Position numbers and translations under genes: made by a program. From a virus, in IMG/VR virus record IMGVR_UViG_3300037487_001247, positions 1 through 40,749 of that record: 40,749 nucleotides of DNA; one strand, given 5' to 3'. The notes under the pieces were generated by a model, which saw only the letters and a program-made list of their open reading frames with translations, did not search any database and was not told where the DNA came from. Below are positions 5,780-18,343 of the stretch, in pieces (within the stretch, counting starts at the first letter, position 1; each line of letters begins with the position of its first letter).

Positions 5780-6000
5780 CCGCGTCCGCGTCGATTCGAG
5801 CGAATCGACCAAATAGGCGTTTGGCATTATATAGCAAGATGCGGGCAAAAAATACCCGCCAAAAAATCTTAAAATTTTGGATCTTGCCCCCGGCAGGTTA
5901 CGATGCTAGGGTGTAGACGCAATCGAACCACCCCCACGGGCCGTGTTCGTAAGTATCTTTGTTCAGTTTTTGGTACGTACCTGTAATTGGAGACCTTGCG
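5780..6000 (+). other. Non-coding region with palindromes and a probable promoter
   Basis: No credible gene is seen in these 221 bases. A perfect 20-bp palindrome lies at 5790-5809 (GTCGATTCG, AG, CGAATCGAC). A second structure nests GCGGG/CCCGC (5841-5845 and 5855-5859) inside GCAAGAT/ATCTTGC (5834-5840 and 5881-5887), with A-rich loops. Neither is followed by a T tract on the + strand, so neither is a standard terminator. TTGGAT (5877-5882) and TACGAT (5899-5904), 16 bp apart, form a plausible sigma70-type promoter for the gene at 6001. A GGAGACC ribosome site lies at 5989-5995. Confidence 0.55.
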
Positions 6001-6672
6001 ATGGACGTTACTCGAAGTGAAGCGATTGGTTTGTTGGTTTCGATGGATTTTGAGACCGCCGAAAAGTGGAAGGATGCACGAATCCTTGCCAAGTTGGAGC
6101 GACTTGGCGATTTGGTTGACGAGCCGGAGCAGAAGCAACCGGCAGACAAGGCCAATAAGGCTTTGTTGAAGAAGATCCTCGCTGCCATCGAATCGGAAGA
6201 CGGTTTGTTCGTTGTGGCCGATGCGGCAGAAGAGAAGCCCGCCAAGAAGGCTGCCAAGCCAGCGAAGAAGGAAAAGGTTGTCGAGGAAGAGGACGACGAC
6301 GAAGAAGAAAGTGACGACGACGAGGAGGAGACCGACGAGGAGGAGACCGACGAGGAAGAGGACGAAGCTCCGAAGAAGAAGGCCAAGCCTGCCAAGAAGG
6401 CCAAGGCTGACAAGCCTGCCAAGGCAAAGAAAGAACTCGTCGAAAAGGACGCGTTCAATTGCCGTGTTGGTTCGCAAGCCGCGGACATTAACGCTGAGAT
6501 CAGCGAAGACCCCGCGACTGTCGAAGAGATCGCCAAGGCTACGAAGCTGCCCAACACTCGGATCACGGGACATCTCCGTGCGATGATCGATCGTGGTTTC
6601 GTCGAGAAGACCGACGAAGGCTACGTGGTGGCTGGTGCGAAGAAGGCGAAGAAGGCCAAGGCCAAGAAGTAA
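6001..6672 (+). CDS. Acidic/Lys-rich linker protein with C-terminal winged helix
   Basis: This 223-residue protein has a short helical N-domain (1-75). An extreme low-complexity linker follows: Lys/Ala/Pro (KPAKKAAKPAKK), then a Glu/Asp run, then PKKKAKPAKKAKADKPAK. A compact C-domain of about 55 residues (ATVEEIAKATKLPNTRITGH then LRAMIDRGFVEK) reads as a winged helix, and the protein ends in a Lys/Ala tail. This suits a DNA-binding, possibly histone-like or transcription-modulating protein. The linker resembles tails common in planctomycete proteins. The start is ATG 6001 with GGAG 8 bases upstream; an upstream TTG at 5959 is less likely. The gene is flanked by a probable promoter and a strong terminator, so it is probably transcribed alone. 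It is more G+C-rich than its neighbours. Confidence 0.8.
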   Translation: MDVTRSEAIGLLVSMDFETAEKWKDARILAKLERLGDLVDEPEQKQPADKANKALLKKILAAIESEDGLFVVADAAEEKPAKKAAKPAKKEKVVEEEDDDEEESDDDEEETDEEETDEEEDEAPKKKAKPAKKAKADKPAKAKKELVEKDAFNCRVGSQAADINAEISEDPATVEEIAKATKLPNTRITGHLRAMIDRGFVEKTDEGYVVAGAKKAKKAKAKK

Positions 6673-6748: not shown

Positions 6749-7234
6749 ATGATAACAATTACACGGAAGTTTGAATTTGATGCTGGGCACCGTGTTGTTG
6801 GTCACGAGAACAAGTGTGCCAACCTACACGGACACCGCTACGTTGCCGAAGTAACAATGACAACGCCCACGCTCGACCCGTTAGGACGTGTTATCGACTT
6901 TGGTGAGATCAAAAAAACGATTGGTACTTGGATTGATATTAACTGGGATCATCGGATGTTGTTGTTTGATGAGGACCCGGTGTTCAAATACATTGAAGGC
7001 ATTCTTACTGACCTTGCTACCAAAGCCACAAAAGAAACGTTTCAACAAAACGCATTTAAGGCTATCTTTGGCCCCAAGCCTCCTGTCATGTTGAATTGCA
7101 ACCCGACCGCAGAGAACCTAGCAGAGATTCTATTCGGTATTTGTGACGACATTGTTCCCGAGCATGTGGCGGTGTCAAACCTTCGGCTTTATGAAACTCC
7201 AAACTGCTGGGCCGATTTCGGCTGTTGCCGTTAG
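6749..7234 (+). CDS. queD: 6-carboxytetrahydropterin synthase (QueD)
   Basis: This 161-residue T-fold enzyme converts 7,8-dihydroneopterin triphosphate to 6-carboxy-tetrahydropterin, the second step to preQ0. Zinc ligands H14 (FDAGHR), H27 and H29 (LHGHRY) and the catalytic C23 (KCANLHGH) are all present. DHRMLL and PTAENLAEIL match the conserved second half. The ATG at 6749 follows AAAGGA by 6 bases; longer in-frame extension would run back through the terminator. Its length is slightly above the usual 120-140 because of a loop near 85-105 (TKATKETFQQNAF). It leads a cluster with QueE and FolE, so the phage can make its own precursor for a 7-deazaguanine base. Confidence 0.93.
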   Translation: MITITRKFEFDAGHRVVGHENKCANLHGHRYVAEVTMTTPTLDPLGRVIDFGEIKKTIGTWIDINWDHRMLLFDEDPVFKYIEGILTDLATKATKETFQQNAFKAIFGPKPPVMLNCNPTAENLAEILFGICDDIVPEHVAVSNLRLYETPNCWADFGCCR

Positions 7235-7254
7235 GCTCATTACGATACTGTAGC
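7235..7254 (+). promoter_or_regulatory. 20-bp repeat upstream of queE (copy 1)
   Basis: GCTCATTACGATACTGTAGC begins directly after the queD stop. It is repeated exactly at 21030-21049, also in a short intergenic space upstream of a gene. It contains TACGAT, which can act as a -10 box. The start of queE lies 27 bases further on, with AAGGAGG as its ribosome site. No clear -35 box is seen. The probable role is a phage-specific promoter or regulator site. Confidence 0.55.
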
Positions 7255-7281
7255 GTAGGCCCCTATAAACAAGGAGGTAAG

Positions 7282-7965
7282 ATGCAGCCCAACCAACAAA
7301 GACCCGAACCAATATCAACAAGTGATACGTTGCTGGTTCATTCTGTGTGGCCTACTATTCAAGGCGAAGGTCCTTATGCTGGCAGTCCTGCTGTCTTCGT
7401 TCGTTTAGCAGGGTGCAACATCCAATGTCCAGCGTGCGACACGGACTACACGTCTGTTCGTATGCCGTACACAGCCTACAATCTATCTGGTCTAGTGTAC
7501 GCTACTCGCCGTTCTGGTGTGGTAGTCATTACAGGTGGCGAACCATTCCGCCAAGACATTGGTCCCTTTTGTCAACACTTGCTTGATTTGGGGTTCACTG
7601 TTCAAGTCGAGACCAATGGGATGTTGTACCGCGACAATGTCCCCTATGATAAAATCACGGTAGTGTGTAGCCCAAAGACTCCTTTTCTTGCTACTGCTTT
7701 GTTACCTCACATCAAAGCGTACAAGTACGTTGTTCAAAAGGGGTTCATATCTGATATAGATGGTCTGCCCACTTCTGCATTAGGACGCCACACTGCGGTA
7801 GCCCGTCCGTCTTGTTGGTCTCCTCTTGTTCCCATTTACATTCAGCCACTGGATGAACAAGATCCGATTCTTAATCAAGAAAATCTGGAGGAGGCCATTC
7901 GTGTCTGTAGCAAATATGATTATCGCCTTTGTTTGCAGATTCACAAAATCATAGGATTGGACTGA
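7282..7965 (+). CDS. queE: 7-carboxy-7-deazaguanine synthase (QueE)
   Basis: This 227-residue radical SAM enzyme rearranges 6-carboxytetrahydropterin to 7-carboxy-7-deazaguanine. The N-terminal substrate region WPTIQGEGPYAGSPAVFVRL is typical. The cluster motif CNIQCPAC (Cx3Cx2C) binds the 4Fe-4S cluster. VVITGGEPFRQ gives the SAM-binding GGE motif, and VQVETNG is also conserved. The ATG at 7282 has AAGGAGG 5 bases upstream; the upstream in-frame start at 7225 would run through the 20-bp repeat. Its stop shares one base with the FolE start, indicating coupling. The identification is firm. Confidence 0.94.
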   Translation: MQPNQQRPEPISTSDTLLVHSVWPTIQGEGPYAGSPAVFVRLAGCNIQCPACDTDYTSVRMPYTAYNLSGLVYATRRSGVVVITGGEPFRQDIGPFCQHLLDLGFTVQVETNGMLYRDNVPYDKITVVCSPKTPFLATALLPHIKAYKYVVQKGFISDIDGLPTSALGRHTAVARPSCWSPLVPIYIQPLDEQDPILNQENLEEAIRVCSKYDYRLCLQIHKIIGLD

Positions 7966-8531
7966 TGAAGACCATGACAATGACAATAGAAGCAATGAAG
8001 GCAGTTGAAACCCTGCTTGGATACATTTCGGAAGATCCGCAGCGAGAGGGATTAAAAGACACGCCGTTGCGAGTGGTGCGAAGTTACGACCAGATCTTTG
8101 GCGGCTACCTATTAAATCCTGCTGATGAAATGAAAGTGTTTGAAGATGGTGCTTGCGATGAAATGGTACTGCTCAAAGAGATCGAGTTCTACAGTGTGTG
8201 TGAGCACCACATGCAACCATTCTTTGGCAAGGCCCACATTGCCTACATTCCTAATGGACGTGTGATAGGGGTGTCTAAGCTGGCCCGTGTGCTTGACATT
8301 TATGCTCGGCGGTTACAGATACAAGAACGCATTTGTCAACAAGTGGTATCCGCTTTAATGGAACACTTGCAACCCAAGGGAGCGGCTTGCATATTGGAAG
8401 CAAAGCACTTCTGTATGGTATGCCGGGGCGTACAGAAACAAAATAGCGTGATGGTGACGTCGAGTCTAGAGGGTGTGTTTAAGAGAGACCCGGCCACAAG
8501 ACAAGAACTGTACTCGTTGATTAATTCTTGA
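7965..8531 (+). CDS. folE: GTP cyclohydrolase I (FolE)
   Basis: This 188-residue enzyme makes 7,8-dihydroneopterin triphosphate from GTP, the first step to preQ0 (and to folate). SVCEHHMQPFFGKAHIAYIP supplies the zinc Cys and His, GVSKLARVLDIYARRLQIQE the conserved core, and CMVCRGVQK the second zinc Cys. The ATG at 7965 overlaps the QueE stop by one base (TGATG). The N-terminal helix (AVETLLGYISEDPQREGLKD) is standard. With QueD and QueE it gives three of the four preQ0 steps; the fourth, QueC, is not in the window. Confidence 0.95.
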   Translation: MKTMTMTIEAMKAVETLLGYISEDPQREGLKDTPLRVVRSYDQIFGGYLLNPADEMKVFEDGACDEMVLLKEIEFYSVCEHHMQPFFGKAHIAYIPNGRVIGVSKLARVLDIYARRLQIQERICQQVVSALMEHLQPKGAACILEAKHFCMVCRGVQKQNSVMVTSSLEGVFKRDPATRQELYSLINS

Positions 8532-8541
8532 AAGGATACAA

Positions 8542-8826
8542 ATGGCTAAGGTAAAGACCATTGTAAGTTTTGAACACAACGACATTTTGTTGATTGCTGC
8601 TAATATACAAAAGAATATGCACAGTTTGAAACATGCTGTTGACAAAGATGGTTTGTTGACAGAAGTGAGTTATATTCAGCCTGTGGATATTATGCTTTTG
8701 AAAGAAGCTTTGATGAAAGAAGCCAAACAATCGGTGAATGCTACGCATTGTGTGAGTTGTGTTATTTTTCATGTGAATCAGAACTTAACTGCTACCGTCG
8801 AGATTACGGACATTCGAGCCAAGTAG
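8542..8826 (+). CDS. Small protein of unknown function in the deazaguanine cluster
   Basis: This 94-residue protein is not recognised. It has a mixed strand/helix pattern with a central amphipathic helix (IMLLKEALMKEAKQ) and a CVSC pair near the end. ATG 8542 has GAAAGGA about 6 bases upstream. It lies 10 bases after FolE and 7 bases before the T-fold protein, so it is transcribed with the base-modification genes. No function can be assigned. Confidence 0.7.
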   Translation: MAKVKTIVSFEHNDILLIAANIQKNMHSLKHAVDKDGLLTEVSYIQPVDIMLLKEALMKEAKQSVNATHCVSCVIFHVNQNLTATVEITDIRAK

Positions 8827-8833
8827 GTGGACC

Positions 8834-9730
8834 ATGCAATACGTTTTTTGCCGTACAGAATTTGAAGGAATCCATCGTTGGAAAGATGCCCCCGATGAGG
8901 TGGCATTTCTTCGTGAATGGCATCGCCATATTTTTCATGTGAAGTTGGTGCAACGTGTTACTCACGATGATCGACAAGTTGAATTCATTTTGCTTAAACG
9001 CCAAGTCGAAGATTACATTCAAGTTTGGTTTGCTGGGCAATTTGACTATTCTTGTGAACAGATAGCCCAAAAACTATTGATCGCTTTTAAGTGCGATATG
9101 GTTGAGGTTTCTGAAGATGGTGAGAATGGTGCTTGGGTAACAAAAGATCCAGAAGTGATAGAGATGCCCAAGTATTGGACAAGAACCGAACTTAACAAGC
9201 TACCTTCGATGAAGTTGAATTCTCGTATTTTTATCGGCCTAGAAGTAGAAGGGCCTTTTCGAGAACAATTGACTTTATTTATTCCTGGTTCCGTTACGGC
9301 ACATAGAGTTACAGAAGTGTTGAAATCACTTCTTCCTGCTTTGAAGGACAGGTATAAATTTCAATTTTACTATGGTGCCGGAAACAATCATTTGATTAAA
9401 GAATCGACTTTGCGATTCCTTGCTAAAGCAGCACGAGAATGTGGAAGTGAAATGTACGTTGAGTACAATCACGAGAAAGTATCAGAAGACCTTTCAAGCA
9501 ATGCTTTTGTTGGAATGAATGTAGTTTGTCTTGGTGGCTATTGCCCCGCTGTTGTTGCTTATGATAAAACGGTAGATACCAGAGCAGGAACAGTTACTTG
9601 GAAAAAGCCAGGTGGCGAAGAATGCTTTGTTAGTCAGCTGGACGATCCGTTGTACGCCCAAGATGTGTTTTTGGAAGGCAACCATAACTGGCCCGAAGAA
9701 CTAGCCGGTCTTTTAACAAAGGTGACTTGA
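8834..9730 (+). CDS. QueD-like T-fold protein lacking the catalytic Cys, with extra C-domain
   Basis: This is a 298-residue protein. The first 65 residues line up by eye with the QueD encoded at 6749: FEGIHRW against FDAGHRV, WHRHIFHVKL against LHGHRYVAEV, and QVEFILLKRQV against VIDFGEIKKTI. The three zinc-type His are kept (H14, H30, H32), but the catalytic Cys position is L26, so QueD chemistry is unlikely. A separate domain of about 200 residues follows (FIGLEVEGPFREQLTLFIPG, then FQFYYGAGN and VVAYDKTVD), which I do not recognise. It may bind a pterin or deazaguanine intermediate. Its stop overlaps the glycosyltransferase start by one base. The T-fold call is inference from pattern. Confidence 0.6.
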   Translation: MQYVFCRTEFEGIHRWKDAPDEVAFLREWHRHIFHVKLVQRVTHDDRQVEFILLKRQVEDYIQVWFAGQFDYSCEQIAQKLLIAFKCDMVEVSEDGENGAWVTKDPEVIEMPKYWTRTELNKLPSMKLNSRIFIGLEVEGPFREQLTLFIPGSVTAHRVTEVLKSLLPALKDRYKFQFYYGAGNNHLIKESTLRFLAKAARECGSEMYVEYNHEKVSEDLSSNAFVGMNVVCLGGYCPAVVAYDKTVDTRAGTVTWKKPGGEECFVSQLDDPLYAQDVFLEGNHNWPEELAGLLTKVT

Positions 9731-10965
9731 TGTTATTCTACATGCCACTCGAGAGTTATGCCGAAAGATACACTTTGCAATGGTCGGCCCCGAAAACGGG
9801 CTGGCTAGAACGTCGCTGGCTGGCCGCAGGCGTGCCGTATCTGCGTATCGACCCCAAAATGGAAGTTAGGGCCATTAAAACGGGCAGTGTCGTTGACGGC
9901 GTAGGACGAGCGGCTTATGCGTTCGCTCAAACTAAGCGGTTGCTGGAGTTGGCCGAGCTAGGAGGGGTAACTAGCGAAGACACCATTTACTTCGATGATT
10001 TCTGGCACCCAGGATTTGAAGCCATTCCTTATGCGTTTCATCTAATGGGCATTAAACCGAAGATGTACGCCTTCCTTCATGCCCAGACGGTGGACGAGTT
10101 CGACTTTACGTACCCCATGCGAAAATGGATGAATCCGTTTGAGAAGGGTATTGCTGCCTCGCTTGATGGGATCTTCGTGTGTTGTCAAACACTAAAAGAT
10201 TTAGTGTGTGATGTTCAGAATTGTGCTCCAATGGAATACGCAATTGCATCACCCGAGAAGGTCCACGTGACAGGACATCCATTTAACAGCGAAGAAGTAA
10301 TGGAGCGGATGCCCAAATGGTATAATGACTTCCGTATAGGAAGATCATACCCAATGCCAGAACGAGAGAACAAGATCATCTGGTCCAGTCGTTGGGACAA
10401 AGAAAAGAACCCAGACTTCTTTTTGCTGGTGGCTGATGCCCTTTTAACAGAGAAAGAAGATCTTACTTTTGTAATCTGTACGGGTGCCAAAGAGTTGCGA
10501 AGCAATGAACCAGAACTGCTTGGGTTGCTAAAAAATACGATGCGTAAGTGGCCCAAGAATATCATTCTCAAAGAGGGATTGACAAAAGAAGAATACTATG
10601 CTGAACTATGCACAGCTAAAGTGCAAATGAATACAGCAGACCAAGACTTCGTTGCCATCACCTTGTTGGAAGCTGCGGTAGCTGGTTGCTACCCTGTTTA
10701 TCCCAACTTCCGGTCTTTTCCAGAAACGCTGCGAGAGAATCCTTATATGCTCTATAAGCATCTAGATAAGAAAGATGCTATGCGTGCCGTGCGGTATGTC
10801 TTTCATGTGTATGGCAATGAAGCACTTCACACAGCAAAGTCAATTGAAATGCGAAGTTGGATTTACCGGCGATTCGATGATTCATGGGCACGGCAATTGA
10901 AGATCATGGGCATTGAGTCTGGCAAGGAGGTTCCCAGTGACCCGTTCGCACAATCTGCGTATTGA
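9730..10965 (+). CDS. GT-B (GT4-like) glycosyltransferase next to DpdA
   Basis: This 411-residue protein has two Rossmann-like halves. The N-half includes TIYFDDFWHPGFEAIPYAFH and FLHAQTVDEFDF. The C-half has IIWSSRWDKEKNPDFFLLV, LTFVICTGAKEL and the nucleotide-sugar region ITLLEAAVAGCYPVYPN then FPETL, which matches the GT4 ExxxxxxxE pattern. Family members transfer a sugar from an activated nucleotide. The gene starts on the stop of the T-fold gene and overlaps the DpdA-like gene by 29 bases, so the products are probably made together. T4 DNA glucosyltransferases are also GT-B fold enzymes, so DNA base glycosylation is plausible but unproven. A virion or cell-surface glycan target remains possible. 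Confidence 0.8.
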   Translation: MLFYMPLESYAERYTLQWSAPKTGWLERRWLAAGVPYLRIDPKMEVRAIKTGSVVDGVGRAAYAFAQTKRLLELAELGGVTSEDTIYFDDFWHPGFEAIPYAFHLMGIKPKMYAFLHAQTVDEFDFTYPMRKWMNPFEKGIAASLDGIFVCCQTLKDLVCDVQNCAPMEYAIASPEKVHVTGHPFNSEEVMERMPKWYNDFRIGRSYPMPERENKIIWSSRWDKEKNPDFFLLVADALLTEKEDLTFVICTGAKELRSNEPELLGLLKNTMRKWPKNIILKEGLTKEEYYAELCTAKVQMNTADQDFVAITLLEAAVAGCYPVYPNFRSFPETLRENPYMLYKHLDKKDAMRAVRYVFHVYGNEALHTAKSIEMRSWIYRRFDDSWARQLKIMGIESGKEVPSDPFAQSAY

Positions 10966-12214
10966 AGACGAATCGAGCCGAGATCTGTTTTTGGATTCGG
11001 GAGCCCATAGTCTTTATACGAAATGGGTGATGCGGAAGAAGCTAGAAAAGTGTGCCAAGACAGACCAACAACTAGAGAATCTGCTAAAGCTATCTTCTAC
11101 TGAACTAGCTGAAGCAGAAATGGCTAATCCGAAATACTTTCGATTGACTGATAAGGAGCAATGGGAGTTTTACCGCTCCGATGTGTTTTATGAATACGTC
11201 GATGAGTATGCGTCGTTCGTCAAAGAGAACCAAGATTGCATTCCCTACTTCGCAAATATGGATGCCATCTTCAACCCCAAGATTTCGTACTACAACCAAA
11301 AGTACATTGAAAAGAATTACGGTATTGTTCCCGTCCCCGTCATCCATGCAGGGACACCCATCCATTGGATTAAGAAGTACCTAAAGGAAGGATACGACTT
11401 TCTTGGGTTCGGTGGCCTTGGTCAAAAGATGTCGAAGAAGAGTTACTTTAGATGGGCAGACAATGCGTTCAGCTACATCTGCCCACCACCACACAGGACA
11501 CCCGTTGTGAAGGTACATGGCTTTGCTATGACTTCAATGCAACTGGTTTCGAGATATCCGTGGTGGAGTGTCGATTCGGCATCGTGGATTAAAGCGTCTG
11601 GGTTTGGAGCAATTTATGTTCCTTCTTTAGTTGACGATGAATTTTGCTTAACTAGACACAATCGACCACCAATGATTTTGTATGTTTCCGAAACATCGAC
11701 CCAAACATGCCACTATGACTTCCTTGGTAAGGCCCAGCAAAAGCGTGTCCGCCGTTGGCTTGCCATGTTAGGCGTGCCGTTCGGTACACCGGGCGAGGGC
11801 GGGGACAGGGGCGTTATCAACCACTATGCCGAACGGATCGAAGCCAACTTACGATACTATAGGATGCTGCAAAGGAGCCAACCACGGTGGCCGTGGCGGT
11901 TCCAGGTACAGAAGGAAAACACAGTCTTCGATACCCAAGGGGTTTACTACGAAGACCTAGAGCAACTACCACTTACCGAAGAAGGAATTCGGTTTTACTA
12001 TTCTGGTATGATCTCCAGAAGGCATTTGCCAGAACGTGTTTTGTATTTGGGTTTCGGTGAATCTGTAGATATGATGTTGACTTACAACGATATGCGGTTA
12101 GGTGGAGAGGAACATCGACAAGAAAAGTTACTGAGCCGACAGGAAGGACAACGAGAAGTGATCCAACGCTTCAAACGCCACAAGAAAAGAAAGAGGATGC
12201 AAAATGCTAGTTAG
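10937..12214 (+). CDS. dpdA: DpdA-like 7-deazaguanine DNA transglycosylase
   Basis: This is a 425-residue TGT-superfamily protein of the phage DpdA type, which swaps guanine in DNA for a preQ0-type base. Key features are the active-site DSGAHS (20-25), YFANMDAIFNPKISYYNQ and VPVPVIHAG. These are followed by HWIKKYLKEGYDFLGFGGLG, VVKVHGFAMTSMQLVSRYPW and SVDSASW (D213), matching the two-Asp TIM-barrel pattern. The C-terminal 60 residues are very basic (KRHKKRKRMQN), fitting a DNA substrate. The start is GTG 10937 with AAGGAGG 6 bases upstream; the first upstream alternative is a TTG with no better site. It overlaps the glycosyltransferase (29 bases) and sliding clamp (11 bases). DpdA identity is by pattern, not by search. 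Confidence 0.8.
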   Translation: MTRSHNLRIEDESSRDLFLDSGAHSLYTKWVMRKKLEKCAKTDQQLENLLKLSSTELAEAEMANPKYFRLTDKEQWEFYRSDVFYEYVDEYASFVKENQDCIPYFANMDAIFNPKISYYNQKYIEKNYGIVPVPVIHAGTPIHWIKKYLKEGYDFLGFGGLGQKMSKKSYFRWADNAFSYICPPPHRTPVVKVHGFAMTSMQLVSRYPWWSVDSASWIKASGFGAIYVPSLVDDEFCLTRHNRPPMILYVSETSTQTCHYDFLGKAQQKRVRRWLAMLGVPFGTPGEGGDRGVINHYAERIEANLRYYRMLQRSQPRWPWRFQVQKENTVFDTQGVYYEDLEQLPLTEEGIRFYYSGMISRRHLPERVLYLGFGESVDMMLTYNDMRLGGEEHRQEKLLSRQEGQREVIQRFKRHKKRKRMQNAS

Positions 12215-13229
12215 CCGTGAAGAGATGTTGCAATCACTGGAGTCGGTAAGTCCTGGATTGTCGCCTCAAGAAATTGTAGAGCAGACTTCTTGTTTTGTGT
12301 TTCGAGATGGTTTGGTGCATACCTACAACGAAGAGGTGGCTTGCCGATTACCAGTGAATTTGAAAATCACTGCGGCAGTTAAGGCTGAGCCTCTGTTAGC
12401 GGTGCTGAGTAAAATGACCGAAGAAGAAATTGACATTTCGGTTAAAGAGAGCGAATTGATTATCAAGGGAAAGAAACGGCTTGCAGCAATTTCTTTAGAT
12501 GCAGAAATTCGCCTGCCCATTGACTCGATTGATCGACCAAAGAAATGGGCTGACCTACCAGACGACTTTGTAGAGGCCGTGGCGGCGGTACATGAATGTG
12601 CTGGCACAAAGAAAGATGTTGGGTTCGCCACACTTTGCATTCATGTACATCCAAAGTTTATGGAGGCGTGTGACAACTTCCAAGCAATTCGGTACAAGCT
12701 CAAAACAACGATTACCGAAGAAACGATTGTTAAGGCATCTACCCTTCGCCAGATCATTCCTTTAGGTGTGACAGAAATGTCCGAGTCGGGAGCCTGGCTT
12801 CACTTTAGGAACCCCAATGGGTTGATAATTTCTTGTCGGCGGCACACCGAAGACTTAAATGAGTTTTCGTCGCTTGATACAGTGTATGAAATGAAAAATG
12901 CCGAAGGTGTTACATTACCACAAGGATTAAGCGAAGCAGCAGAGAAGGCCCAAATCTTTTCGGCAGAGAATACCGAAAAAGATTTAATTACTGTTTCGCT
13001 GGAAGAAGATCGTTTGATACTAAAGGGGCAAAGCATCAGCGGATGGTACAAAGAAGAAAAGAAACTGCGGTACGAAGGAAGACCAATCAAGTTTACCATT
13101 CGCCCAAACCTGTTGATTGAAGTTCTCAAACGACATAATGAATGTGAAATCAACGAAACAAAACTACGAGTAAACACTGCTAAGTTTGTTTACATGACTG
13201 TACTTAATATCGTGGAGGACAAGCAATGA
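12204..13229 (+). CDS. Sliding clamp (beta-clamp-like processivity factor)
   Basis: This 341-residue protein has the repeated strand-helix-strand rhythm of DnaN-type clamps. The first unit has FVFRDGLVHTYNEEVACRLP and PLLAVLSKMTEEEIDISVKE, then LIIKGKKRLAAISL. A third unit has LITVSLEEDRLILKGQSISG and IKFTIRPNLLIEVLKRHNE. It would encircle DNA and tether the polymerase at 16940. It overlaps both neighbours by short ATG/stop overlaps. A clamp loader subunit is encoded at 20108, which supports the assignment. Sequence identity to bacterial DnaN is low, so the call rests on pattern and context. Confidence 0.78.
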   Translation: MLVSREEMLQSLESVSPGLSPQEIVEQTSCFVFRDGLVHTYNEEVACRLPVNLKITAAVKAEPLLAVLSKMTEEEIDISVKESELIIKGKKRLAAISLDAEIRLPIDSIDRPKKWADLPDDFVEAVAAVHECAGTKKDVGFATLCIHVHPKFMEACDNFQAIRYKLKTTITEETIVKASTLRQIIPLGVTEMSESGAWLHFRNPNGLIISCRRHTEDLNEFSSLDTVYEMKNAEGVTLPQGLSEAAEKAQIFSAENTEKDLITVSLEEDRLILKGQSISGWYKEEKKLRYEGRPIKFTIRPNLLIEVLKRHNECEINETKLRVNTAKFVYMTVLNIVEDKQ

Positions 13230-14194
13230 GCGAGTATCGCAAGATAGCCGACCTCCGCCAGCGATACGCCGCCCTACGTTTACAGGTGGAGGAGCTTCAT
13301 CGTGACCGCGACCAATTACAGAAGTTGCTCGACATGCACGCGAAAGTCTGTACCCAGCCCGCCCCGCCAGTCGCAGCGGTGGAGGGGACTGAACCAGCCG
13401 TCTGGACAGAATACCACCGCATTCCGATTACCAAAGACGATGAGGCTGCCGCATGGAAAGCCGCAGCAGAGAGCGAGGGGGACTGGGAAGCCATCAAGGC
13501 CCTGGATGAGATTTTCACCGACCCGTTCCTGAACACCACTCTCAATTGCGGGACGTGGTTCGCACAGAAGGAACCAAACGGCAATCAGTGGACCGTGTTC
13601 GACGAACACGGGAACTTGACTCGCGGGAGTCAGGTCTTAGCCCAAGACGTTGCCCAATACAGGAACCTATTGCGAACGATTCGCAACCATGTGGACAAGT
13701 TCAAAATCGTCAAGGCTCGCATGGTGGCAGAAGGATTACTTCCACCAGCCACACCCCAGCCAGCCGCAGCGGTGGAGGGGACGGGGGAGCCGAAATGCCC
13801 GCAGTGCGGCGACCATCGTTGGGTGAATATCGGCAGTACGACCACGACCAACGATGGAGGTCGCTACCAATGCCAATGCGGATTCCTCTACAACTGGTGT
13901 CCGCCAGCCCCCGCCCCGCCTGCCGAGTGGAAAGTCGTTCAACGCAAAGATACCGCCGAATGGATACTCGAAATCGCTGGTCTGAAGCTAGCCACCCAAG
14001 CCGAGGCCGAAGCGGCAGCAGCGAAGGTGAACGGTACATGCCACCACATCTCAACACTCCAGCGAGAACACAAACAAATGGCAGCGGAAATCTCCCGTCT
14101 CCAGGCAGAGCTAGCGGCAGCGGAGAAGGACCGTGATGAAAATCTGAAGCTATATCAAGAAGAAGTGCAAGCAAACATGAACAGGAATAAATGA
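13226..14194 (+). CDS. Coiled-coil protein with zinc ribbon, unknown function
   Basis: This 322-residue protein starts with a coiled coil (LRQRYAALRLQVEELHRDRD) and ends with another (HHISTLQREHKQMAAEISRL). A zinc ribbon lies at about 190-230 (CPQCGDHRW then CQCGFLYNWC). Two Pro/Ala/Gly linkers each contain AAVEGT. The linkers are encoded by an 18-bp exact repeat (13372-13389 and 13765-13782), a sign of duplication. The gene is visibly more G+C-rich than its neighbours, so it may be a later arrival. It overlaps the clamp (ATGA) and the UDG-exonuclease gene. No function is recognised. Confidence 0.75.
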   Translation: MSEYRKIADLRQRYAALRLQVEELHRDRDQLQKLLDMHAKVCTQPAPPVAAVEGTEPAVWTEYHRIPITKDDEAAAWKAAAESEGDWEAIKALDEIFTDPFLNTTLNCGTWFAQKEPNGNQWTVFDEHGNLTRGSQVLAQDVAQYRNLLRTIRNHVDKFKIVKARMVAEGLLPPATPQPAAAVEGTGEPKCPQCGDHRWVNIGSTTTTNDGGRYQCQCGFLYNWCPPAPAPPAEWKVVQRKDTAEWILEIAGLKLATQAEAEAAAAKVNGTCHHISTLQREHKQMAAEISRLQAELAAAEKDRDENLKLYQEEVQANMNRNK

Positions 14195-15399
14195 TGCCTG
14201 AAGGTTTCTTTCCATTATCGGTATTGCAGCAGTCGAGAGGCTCGCTGTCTCGCGTTGCCCAGTGCGGTGCTTGCGGCTTGTACAAGACCTGCCGTTCGCC
14301 CAAAATGGCTGTGACAGGCAAAGGTAGGCGGGGTATTTTGCTTGTGGGCGAGGCACCCGGCACAACCGACGACGAGGAGGGATGTCAACTGTGTGGCGAT
14401 ACCGGACGAGTAGTTGAGAAAACACTTCGACGGTTTGATATAGATATGCGAAAAGATTGTTGGGCGACAAATGCGTTGATCTGCCATCCACCCCATGCCA
14501 GACAGCCAAGTGATGCCGAAGTCACTTATTGTCGTCCTAACTTGCAAAAGACAATTGATACACTGAAACCCAAAGTTGTGATTTGCTTTGGGTATGCCGC
14601 TGCCAAAAGTGTAATAGGCATGGCATGGAAAGGTGATATAGGAACGGCATCGCGGTGGACTGGTTGGCAGATTCCTAGTACCAAATTAAATGTATGGATT
14701 TGTCCAACGCATAACCCTGCCTATCTTGTACGAACTAAAAAGGATCGAGTCCTCGAGAAGGAGTTCGAAGACCAAATCGAATCGGCTTTTGCTTTAGAAG
14801 GAAACCCGTGGTCGGAGATACCAGACTACGCAAAAGATGTGGACGTTGTGATTGACCCTACTTTGGCCTGTAAAGCAATACGTGAAATCGTTGAACGTGG
14901 TGGTTTGTGTTCATTTGACTATGAAACAAACATGCTAAAGCCAGACAGCCCCAAGTCTCAGATTGTTTCTGCTTCTATTTGTTGGCGGGGGAAGCAAACC
15001 ATAGCCTTTCCCTGGACGCGAGCAACAGCAGAAGAGATGAGCAAGTTCCTGCTTGCTAAGAACATTAAAAAGATGGCCCATAACATGAAGTTTGAGGATC
15101 GCTGGACGAAAGCGATTCTTAAGCATCGAGTAGTTGGATGGGGTTGGGACTCGATGATAGCTGCCCATTTGGTGGACAATAGACCAGACATAACCAGTTT
15201 GAAGTTCCAGTCTTTTGTGTTGCTTGGAACCCCTAGCTTTGACGATCATATTAAACCATATCTACGAACGAAAGAAGGATCATACGAAGTAAATCGAGTT
15301 TCGAGTGAAATCGATCTTAAAGATTTACTGTTATACAATGGATTGGATTCGTTGCTTGAATACAAAATCGCCAAAAAACAAATGGAGCTGTTCAAATGA
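14191..15399 (+). CDS. Family 4-type uracil-DNA glycosylase fused to 3'-5' exonuclease
   Basis: This is a 402-residue two-domain protein. Residues about 25-190 are a family 4/5 uracil-DNA glycosylase. They include CGACGLYKTC, LLVGEAPGTTDDEEG, TNALICHPPHARQP and YCRPNLQKTIDTLKPKVVIC, with four Cys placed for an Fe-S cluster. Residues about 225-402 are a Pol I-type DEDD exonuclease: Exo I FDYETN (D243, E245), Exo II AHNMKFED and Exo III YNGLDSLLEYK. In SPO1-like phages a UDG domain is fused to a complete family A polymerase. Here the polymerase part is a separate gene starting 1.54 kb downstream. It probably proofreads with that polymerase. The ATG at 14191 has AGGA 6 bases upstream. Confidence 0.85.
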   Translation: MMPEGFFPLSVLQQSRGSLSRVAQCGACGLYKTCRSPKMAVTGKGRRGILLVGEAPGTTDDEEGCQLCGDTGRVVEKTLRRFDIDMRKDCWATNALICHPPHARQPSDAEVTYCRPNLQKTIDTLKPKVVICFGYAAAKSVIGMAWKGDIGTASRWTGWQIPSTKLNVWICPTHNPAYLVRTKKDRVLEKEFEDQIESAFALEGNPWSEIPDYAKDVDVVIDPTLACKAIREIVERGGLCSFDYETNMLKPDSPKSQIVSASICWRGKQTIAFPWTRATAEEMSKFLLAKNIKKMAHNMKFEDRWTKAILKHRVVGWGWDSMIAAHLVDNRPDITSLKFQSFVLLGTPSFDDHIKPYLRTKEGSYEVNRVSSEIDLKDLLLYNGLDSLLEYKIAKKQMELFK

Positions 15400-16939: not shown

Positions 16940-18343
16940 ATGCTGGCTGCATCTCTCGAAGCCTATAAACTGTTTCATGATGGTTCCATTGCTCTGTCGC
17001 AAGTCGAAGCTAATGGGATGCGTGTCGATACGGAGTATCTAAATAGGCAAATCGTGAAAACGGACAAGCGGATTAAGAAGCTTGAGATTAGGCTTCGAGA
17101 TGATGCAGTTTTTAAGATCTGGCGAAAGCAGTATGGCAACAGCATGAAGTTAACAAGCAAGGAACAGCTTGGCGTCATTCTGTTTAAGACAATGGGTTAT
17201 CGGGTTCCTTCCTATTCGGATAAAGGACGGCCCAAGGTAGATGAGACAGCATTGCGAACGGTGGACTTGCCTTTTGTAAATGACTACCTTACCATTGAAA
17301 AATTACGTAAAGCGAGTGGCACCTACTTAAAAGGAATTTTGCGGGAAGTAGACTCAAATGGATTTTTGCATCCGTTTTTTAATCTCAATACTGTCAAAAC
17401 ATTTCGCTCATCAAGCGACCACCCTAACTTCCAAAACATCCCAGTTCGTAACTCCGAAATTGCTGAACTCATACGAACTGCATTCATTCCACGACCAGGG
17501 CATTGTATTGTCGAGAATGACTTCGGTGGCATCGAAGTCCGAATCATGTCTTGCTACTCAAAAGACAAAGTGCTTGTCAACTACTTGCACGACTCATCAA
17601 AAGACATGCACCGGGACATGGCGATGATGGTTTACAAGTTGGGTAAGGGCCAAGTCACCAAAGATAGTCGTTACTGTGCCAAGAATATGTTTGTGTTTCC
17701 AGAGTTCTACGGGAGCTACTATTTGGATTGTGCCCGCAACCTATGGGATGCCATCGACCTGCGTAAGCTGCAAACCGCGGACGGCGTGCCTGTCAAGCAG
17801 CATTTAGCCAGTTTAGGTATAACTAAACTCGGCAAATGCGAGCCAGACAGCGACCCCAAGCGAGGCACGTTCGAGTATCATATTAAGGAAACCGAAGAGG
17901 CTTTTTGGAAGCGATTCAAGCAACACCAAAGCTGGAAACGCCAGTTCTACAATGACTACTTGTCCAACGGTTGTTTCAAGACACTAACTGGCTTTGTCTG
18001 CCGTGGTGTCTATAAGCGAAACGACGTTACGAACTATCCAGTACAAGGGTCTGCTTTTCACGTTCTGTTGTGGAGTTTGATACAGTTACAGAAAGAACTC
18101 AACCAACGAAAGATGAAGTCCAAGATCATTGGGCAGATTCATGATAGTATTGTTGGTGATGTTCACGAAGACGAGCTAGAACTGTATTTATCGTTAGTGA
18201 AGGAAATAACTACCGAACGATCAAGGGAGTGTTGGAAATGGATAATCGTGCCGATGGAGATCGAAGCGGAAGTGACCCCAATCAACGGTACTTGGCACCA
18301 GAAGGCAACTCATCGAGACGATGGGACGAGTTGGTTTCAATGA
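16940..18343 (+). CDS. Family A DNA polymerase, polymerase domain only
   Basis: This 467-residue protein is the Klenow-type palm/fingers/thumb without its own exonuclease. Motif A is ENDFGGIEVRIM (D194). Motif B is R244-YCA-K248 followed by FVFPEFYG, with one extra residue relative to E. coli Pol I. Motif C is GQIHDSIVGDV (H401, D402), where Ser replaces the usual Glu after the catalytic Asp. Thumb residues include SGTYLKGILREV, and FRSSSDHPNFQNIPVR is the typical template-binding segment. ATG 16940 has AAGGAG 10 bases upstream. The companion UDG-exonuclease is encoded four genes upstream. This is the replicative polymerase, presumably clamped by the protein at 12204. Confidence 0.93.
   Translation: MLAASLEAYKLFHDGSIALSQVEANGMRVDTEYLNRQIVKTDKRIKKLEIRLRDDAVFKIWRKQYGNSMKLTSKEQLGVILFKTMGYRVPSYSDKGRPKVDETALRTVDLPFVNDYLTIEKLRKASGTYLKGILREVDSNGFLHPFFNLNTVKTFRSSSDHPNFQNIPVRNSEIAELIRTAFIPRPGHCIVENDFGGIEVRIMSCYSKDKVLVNYLHDSSKDMHRDMAMMVYKLGKGQVTKDSRYCAKNMFVFPEFYGSYYLDCARNLWDAIDLRKLQTADGVPVKQHLASLGITKLGKCEPDSDPKRGTFEYHIKETEEAFWKRFKQHQSWKRQFYNDYLSNGCFKTLTGFVCRGVYKRNDVTNYPVQGSAFHVLLWSLIQLQKELNQRKMKSKIIGQIHDSIVGDVHEDELELYLSLVKEITTERSRECWKWIIVPMEIEAEVTPINGTWHQKATHRDDGTSWFQ

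Follow-up and report, generated by a model that had tools for sequence, protein, structure and literature searches.

The IMG/VR virus record IMGVR_UViG_3300037487_001247 (positions 1-40,749, the whole of which is hereafter called the window) carries at 6749-12214 a phage 7-deazaguanine DNA-modification cluster with a DpdA-type transglycosylase and without QueC, as a first-pass annotation of this DNA had proposed. In addition to QueD, QueE, FolE and DpdA, the cluster encodes a paralogue of QueD and a glycosyltransferase, and this cassette recurs in other viral records, nearly all of which also lack QueC. The assignment to a QueC-free deazaguanine pathway is well supported. The fuller reading, in which the operon makes and installs a 7-deazaguanine other than preQ0 that would be processed by the paralogue, inserted by DpdA and then glycosylated, is one to which we give roughly even chances.

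Gene content and recurrence of the cassette

The first-pass annotation had QueD, QueE and FolE back to back, and family matches agree with it (6749-8531; Table 1). QueD also matches TIGR03367 (E 1e-22, under that model's cut-off) and keeps in alignment the cysteine (C23), the zinc histidines (H27-G-H29) and the Asp-His pair (D67-H68) of its family. QueE contains the motif GCNIQCPACDT, reaches a best E of 7e-24 among the QueE models of NCBIfam, and might start at an alternative TTG at 7225. Together, FolE, QueD and QueE make 7-carboxy-7-deazaguanine (CDG) (PMC13329287; PMC6884629). The annotation had DpdA follow FolE; both genes are present, but three open reading frames (ORFs; 8542-8826, 8834-9730 and 9730-10965) intervene, two of which (ORF5 and the glycosyltransferase) are recurrent members of the cassette. 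The other, ORF4, has no family match, and no relative of it was found in related clusters.

A hidden Markov model (HMM) search with the ORF at 10937, set beforehand as the test that could refute the annotation, keeps its product inside the DpdA family. The protein matches DpdA of Enterobacteria phage 9g (tblastn E 1e-16 over 39% of the query) and has the motifs DSGAHS and VDSASW, of which DSGA and VDS(A/T)SW are conserved in the DpdA alignment; by inference from TGT, their aspartates would be catalytic. The window enzyme is predicted to put a deazaguanine into DNA.

Table 1. Positions, strand and family assignments of the cassette genes and their flanking genes in the window
Feature	Position	Strand	Match or remark
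Acidic winged-helix-like protein	5959..6672	+	TrmB/ArsR-type helix-turn-helix
QueD (6-carboxytetrahydropterin synthase)	6749..7234	+	PF01242, E 7e-32
QueE (7-carboxy-7-deazaguanine synthase, radical SAM)	7282..7965	+	phrog_2076, E 2e-47
FolE (GTP cyclohydrolase I)	7974..8531	+	PF01227, E 6e-70; NF006825/TIGR00063 above cut-off
ORF4, 94 aa	8542..8826	+	
ORF5 N-terminal domain, QueD paralogue, candidate DpdL	8834..9145	+	phrog_17812, E 1e-25
ORF5 C-terminal domain	9158..9730	+	encoded separately at the corresponding place in other clusters
Glycosyltransferase, GT-B fold, GT4-like	9730..10965	+	PF00534, E 1e-5, just under cut-off
DpdA-type DNA-guanine transglycosylase (phage 9g type)	10937..12214	+	phrog_887, E 8e-34
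DNA polymerase sliding clamp (beta-clamp type)	12204..13229	+	phrog_947, E 4e-24

The annotated absence of QueC also stands, with no match to PF06508 in the whole 40,749-base record. This record is partial: it is linear, the ORFs scanned give replication and tail genes, and there is no terminase, portal or capsid match among them. Failure to find QueC in the window is therefore weak evidence by itself, and the argument rests on relatives of the cassette. A scan of IMG/VR with the glycosyltransferase alone returned 14 loci, all of which have the QueD paralogue and DpdA and none of which has QueC. Full-length loci follow the order QueD-QueE-FolE-paralogue-glycosyltransferase-DpdA-clamp, with small variations. 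A similar scan with the single ORF5 protein gave no match; the alignment of the paralogue domain, in turn, found more than 580 relatives, from which 80 loci were kept. Both genes, the paralogue and the glycosyltransferase, are present in 54 non-redundant loci and lie at most 1.5 kb apart in 50 of these. As the same gene order is found in many independent contigs, the cassette is not due to chance.

The paralogue-bearing records, some of which span 50-470 kb, were also searched for QueC in full. Matches above cut-off numbered 0/21 and 0/50 in two batches and one in the third, that is, one among 108 distinct records (Vibrio phage D479, a weak and partial match). The suggestion that QueC simply lies elsewhere in the genome is thereby disfavoured. 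For contrast, 50 records with lengths from about 18 kb upwards were drawn from IMG/VR with a DNA motif of QueE, independently of the paralogue. QueC was above cut-off in 37/44 records without the paralogue and in 0/6 records with it (Fisher p 1e-4). These comparisons indicate that the paralogue and QueC exclude each other, and that the cassette is, as judged from gene content, a recurrent alternative and not a gap.

Several features of the surroundings accompany the cassette. The start of dpdA overlaps the end of the glycosyltransferase gene, and the start of the sliding-clamp gene overlaps the end of dpdA, which is consistent with a single transcription unit. The clamp family is a conserved downstream neighbour (25/55 related clusters). 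Upstream of the cassette, the very acidic protein of low complexity, one end of which is of the winged-helix type, has relatives near the cassette in 16 of the 55. Further downstream, a family A DNA polymerase is seemingly split over two ORFs that match consecutive parts of phrog_17: one with a uracil-DNA-glycosylase domain and the 3'-5' exonuclease part (14191-15399), the other with the polymerase domain (16940-18343).

ORF5 and the fate of CDG

ORF5 is a protein of 298 residues, of which the first 104 match phrog_17812, a family of unknown function. Profile comparison by hhalign relates this domain to QueD (94% probability, E 1.4e-7), and its predicted model superposes on E. coli QueD with a TM-score of 0.74 by target length (Foldseek); sequence matches in the PDB are weak, the top ones being QueD-type proteins. 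Conserved positions of the paralogue are His14, His30-Arg-His32, Glu50, Ser73-Cys-Glu75 and Glu94-Asp-Gly-Glu97, and its alignment shows no variation at the zinc histidines H14, H30 and H32. The position of the QueD catalytic cysteine is occupied by leucine (Leu26) in 18/18 paralogue sequences, and the alignment contains no DH motif corresponding to the Asp-His pair of QueD. Since the catalytic cysteine is lost, the paralogue cannot perform QueD chemistry by the QueD mechanism.

It might be supposed that the host supplies QueC, and hence preQ0 for insertion, the paralogue being either a diverged QueD or a pseudo-enzyme. Hosts often have QueC. The QueC-less phage Bipper was grouped with preQ0 phages, CDG being noted as an alternative (Hutinet et al., 2019; PMC6884629). 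We consider this quite improbable: QueC is missing in 107/108 paralogue-bearing records yet is carried by most other phages with QueE, the window holds a complete QueD beside the paralogue, which has invariant residues of its own, and host supply fails to explain why FolE, QueD and QueE are kept while QueC is consistently missing. Of the options in the first-pass annotation, the insertion of CDG or another derivative fits better, and the presence of the paralogue and the glycosyltransferase favours another derivative over CDG itself. The observation was thus partly confirmed and its interpretation partly supported.

Which derivative this would be is suggested by analogy. Phages with 7-carboxy- and unsubstituted 7-deazaguanine in their DNA, together with a predicted decarboxylase, DpdL, were reportedly described by Cui and colleagues in 2023, and the N-terminal domain of ORF5 is a candidate DpdL, i.e., a putative CDG decarboxylase. 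We infer the following route. FolE, QueD and QueE would convert GTP to CDG; the paralogue, in QueC's place, would bind CDG in its pterin-type pocket, where the zinc site would decarboxylate it to 7-deazaguanine; DpdA would exchange the product for guanine in DNA; and the glycosyltransferase would use a nucleotide sugar to glycosylate the base or an intermediate, before or after insertion. The bulky glycosylated deazaguanine would then block restriction enzymes.

The remaining 190 residues of ORF5 form a second, unassigned domain without a Pfam match, which is a stand-alone gene in other clusters. The idea that it is a cysteine-less relative of QueE or other radical SAM proteins was unsupported (profile match at 5% probability only). 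In 10/55 clusters (among them those with L008:9063-10001, L010:8635-9555 and L046:10248-11669), a member of a radical SAM family, f3, is encoded between the paralogue and either the glycosyltransferase or DpdA. This family is present in none of the clusters with the ORF5 C-terminal domain, although the cases are too few to claim that the two do not overlap; they are possibly alternative tailoring enzymes.

The glycosyltransferase and its acceptor

The score of the glycosyltransferase against PF00534 (25.5 bits) is close to the cut-off of 26.4. Its AlphaFold model (pLDDT 85) has a GT-B fold, and the nearest PDB structures are MshA and BshA (Foldseek E about 2e-11, about 12-14% identity over the alignment). 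Arg221, Lys226 and Glu314 are invariant, so that the Arg/Lys/Glu of the donor site are conserved in the alignments. The nearest named viral protein is the glycosyltransferase of Acidovorax phage ACP17, there is a distant fold match to the DNA alpha-glycosyltransferase of cyanophage S-TIM5, and a scan of cellular genomes found no close relative.

A first possibility is that this enzyme acts on hydroxymethylcytosine or hydroxymethyluracil, as in T4-like phages, and represents a second, independent modification. To our knowledge, the well-known phage DNA glycosyltransferases all act on hydroxymethylpyrimidines, and the match to the S-TIM5 enzyme is in line with such a role. However, PF00303 (thymidylate synthase/dCMP hydroxymethylase) is present in only 2/26 glycosyltransferase-bearing records and absent from the window, which speaks against a hydroxymethylpyrimidine acceptor and makes this very improbable.

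A second possibility is that plain 7-deazaguanine or CDG is present in the DNA, as in other QueC-less phages, and that the glycosyltransferase has another target, such as the host surface. Envelope sugars are a frequent substrate of phage glycosyltransferases (PMC7824862), and clusters with the paralogue and a DpdAc transglycosylase do without any glycosyltransferase. Linkage argues the other way. In phages as different as that of the present 41 kb contig, the cyanophage BUCT-ZZ01 and jumbo phages, the glycosyltransferase gene is located either between those of the paralogue and DpdA or beside one of the two. In the QueE-motif sample, its four strong matches all fall within the six paralogue-bearing records, with none in the 44 others (p 7e-5). 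We therefore regard action elsewhere as rather unlikely, though not negligible.

The presence of the glycosyltransferase also tracks the type of transglycosylase, as typed by HMM group only: 18/24 loci with the window DpdA class and 6/6 with DpdAb have it, compared with 0/29 with the phiST-type DpdAc (p 3e-11, a value that treats loci as independent though they share ancestry). In several glycosyltransferase-bearing clusters, a TGT/DpdA-like family with a DSGGFQ motif, f4, stands in for DpdA (L051:2507-4138 and L222:7367-8998). This family matches the DpdAb class in profile comparison (94%), which joins no other DpdA class to that of the window. In phiST-type clusters (L004, Cellulophaga phage phiST; L006), a small kinase-like ATPase and DpdAc come after the paralogue, and there is no glycosyltransferase.

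Genes related to sugar metabolism are found near the module. Three clusters (L036, L051 and L056) contain NAD-dependent epimerase genes. In L048 and L051, the glycosyltransferase adjoins genes of the Gfo/Idh and alcohol-dehydrogenase types; for L048, Gfo/Idh was assigned because the gene clusters with its counterpart in L051. In L222 (Pseudomonas phage vB_Pa-PAC2, of the PA5oct type), the TGT/DpdA-like gene, the glycosyltransferase, the QueD paralogue, an epimerase-domain gene, a phosphoribosyltransferase and QueE stand in a row, and there is no QueC above cut-off in the record. The cassette cluster of Synechococcus phage BUCT-ZZ01 contains a second glycosyltransferase-like gene (L001, 7001-8341), and the sugar might thus be a disaccharide.

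A third possibility is that the glycosyltransferase acts on CDG or its carboxylate, giving an acyl glycoside or a linked amino sugar, and that the paralogue performs another CDG-processing step and is not a decarboxylase. A retained carboxylate would give the sugar a handle, and the structural matches MshA and BshA are N-acetylglucosaminyltransferases. In addition, motif-level deacetylase-like ORFs and PAPS-reductase-type ATPases accompany the paralogue/glycosyltransferase pair in phage X1 and in L216. However, these deacetylase-like ORFs have no Pfam match, the combination occurs in two clusters only, and the paralogue is always present where the glycosyltransferase is. Glycosylation of the carboxylate is, in our opinion, improbable.

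Related genes also occur outside the QueC-less clusters. Xanthomonas phage PhiXhv-15 (L223, 6594-10719) has a related glycosyltransferase (E 8e-31 to the window family) in a different cluster, next to a QueC-domain protein annotated as glucosamine-fructose-6-phosphate aminotransferase (possibly a Gat-QueC), a PIG-L-type GlcNAc deacetylase and a Gfo/Idh dehydrogenase. Phages that carry QueC may also have glycosylated deazaguanines. Two contigs of the QueE sample, L139 and L187, have QueC and a weak glycosyltransferase match nearby, the former also with an adjoining ORF with an HPDDE motif.

We favour, tentatively, glycosylated 7-deazaguanine in DNA, a sugar-decorated purine reached from CDG by a QueC-free route, with the sugar perhaps at carbon 7; this falls somewhat short of an even chance. 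Several points weigh against it. If the paralogue decarboxylates CDG, the acceptor atom is unclear, because unsubstituted 7-deazaguanine has no side-chain hydroxyl at C7; the sugar would have to be attached to the C7 ring carbon, to an exocyclic group, or to a group added by the ORF5 C-terminal domain or a radical SAM protein. A radical SAM protein adjoins the glycosyltransferase or the paralogue in ten clusters, and the ORF5 C-terminal domain does so in others. The decarboxylase role is itself assigned by analogy, and the paralogue is a candidate DpdL. The paralogue also occurs without the glycosyltransferase, in 29/29 phiST-type DpdAc loci, and the glycosyltransferases of jumbo phages are usually assigned to surface polysaccharide (PMC7824862). 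Lastly, many records are fragments, which weakens single absences, though not the contrast between groups.

Cultured phages with the module include those of the PA5oct type, Xanthomonas phage X1, Acidovorax phage ACP17 and Synechococcus phage BUCT-ZZ01, and the prediction is therefore directly testable by mass spectrometry. PA5oct-type phages, which are grown on PAO1 and carry the glycosyltransferase and QueD-paralogue module, are a convenient test system.

Comparison with known systems

The window shares FolE, QueD, QueE and a 9g-type DpdA in one cluster with the phages that have the preQ0/G+ modification, such as Enterobacteria phage 9g and E. coli phage CAjan (Hutinet et al., 2019; PMC6884629). 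Unlike these, it has neither QueC nor Gat-QueC, and the QueD paralogue and the glycosyltransferase are found instead.

The phages reported to have 7-carboxy- or unsubstituted 7-deazaguanine resemble the window in having the CDG pathway but no QueC. Among the members of the paralogue family phrog_17812 is gp40 of Cellulophaga phage phiST, which lies within a QueD-QueE-FolE cluster; in contrast to the window, phiST carries another kind of transglycosylase-like gene, and its cluster has no linked glycosyltransferase. The PA5oct-type Pseudomonas jumbo phages resemble the window in having the glycosyltransferase, the QueD paralogue, a TGT/DpdA-like gene and QueE, here together with an epimerase-domain gene, and in lacking QueC, although the sequences are distant. 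These phages have so far been described only as having a system for deazaguanine synthesis and incorporation (PMC7824862). While QueC-less deazaguanine phages are thus already known in outline, the linked glycosyltransferase appears to be undescribed in the open-licence papers that were searched. The apparent QueC gap becomes a defined and recurrent alternative branch of the deazaguanine pathway.

MshA and BshA have the GT-B fold in common with the window glycosyltransferase, their acceptors being small molecules. The glucosylation of hydroxymethylcytosine in T4-type phages is similar in that a phage glycosyltransferase is thought to decorate DNA; in contrast, the window has no dCMP hydroxymethylase, and the acceptor would be a 7-deazapurine and not a pyrimidine. 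The glycosylated bases known to us in phage DNA are so far all pyrimidines. If the proposed reading is true, a family of phage glycosyltransferases would be tied to purine modification, DNA glycosylation would no longer be confined to pyrimidines, and phages would gain a bulky shield at guanine.

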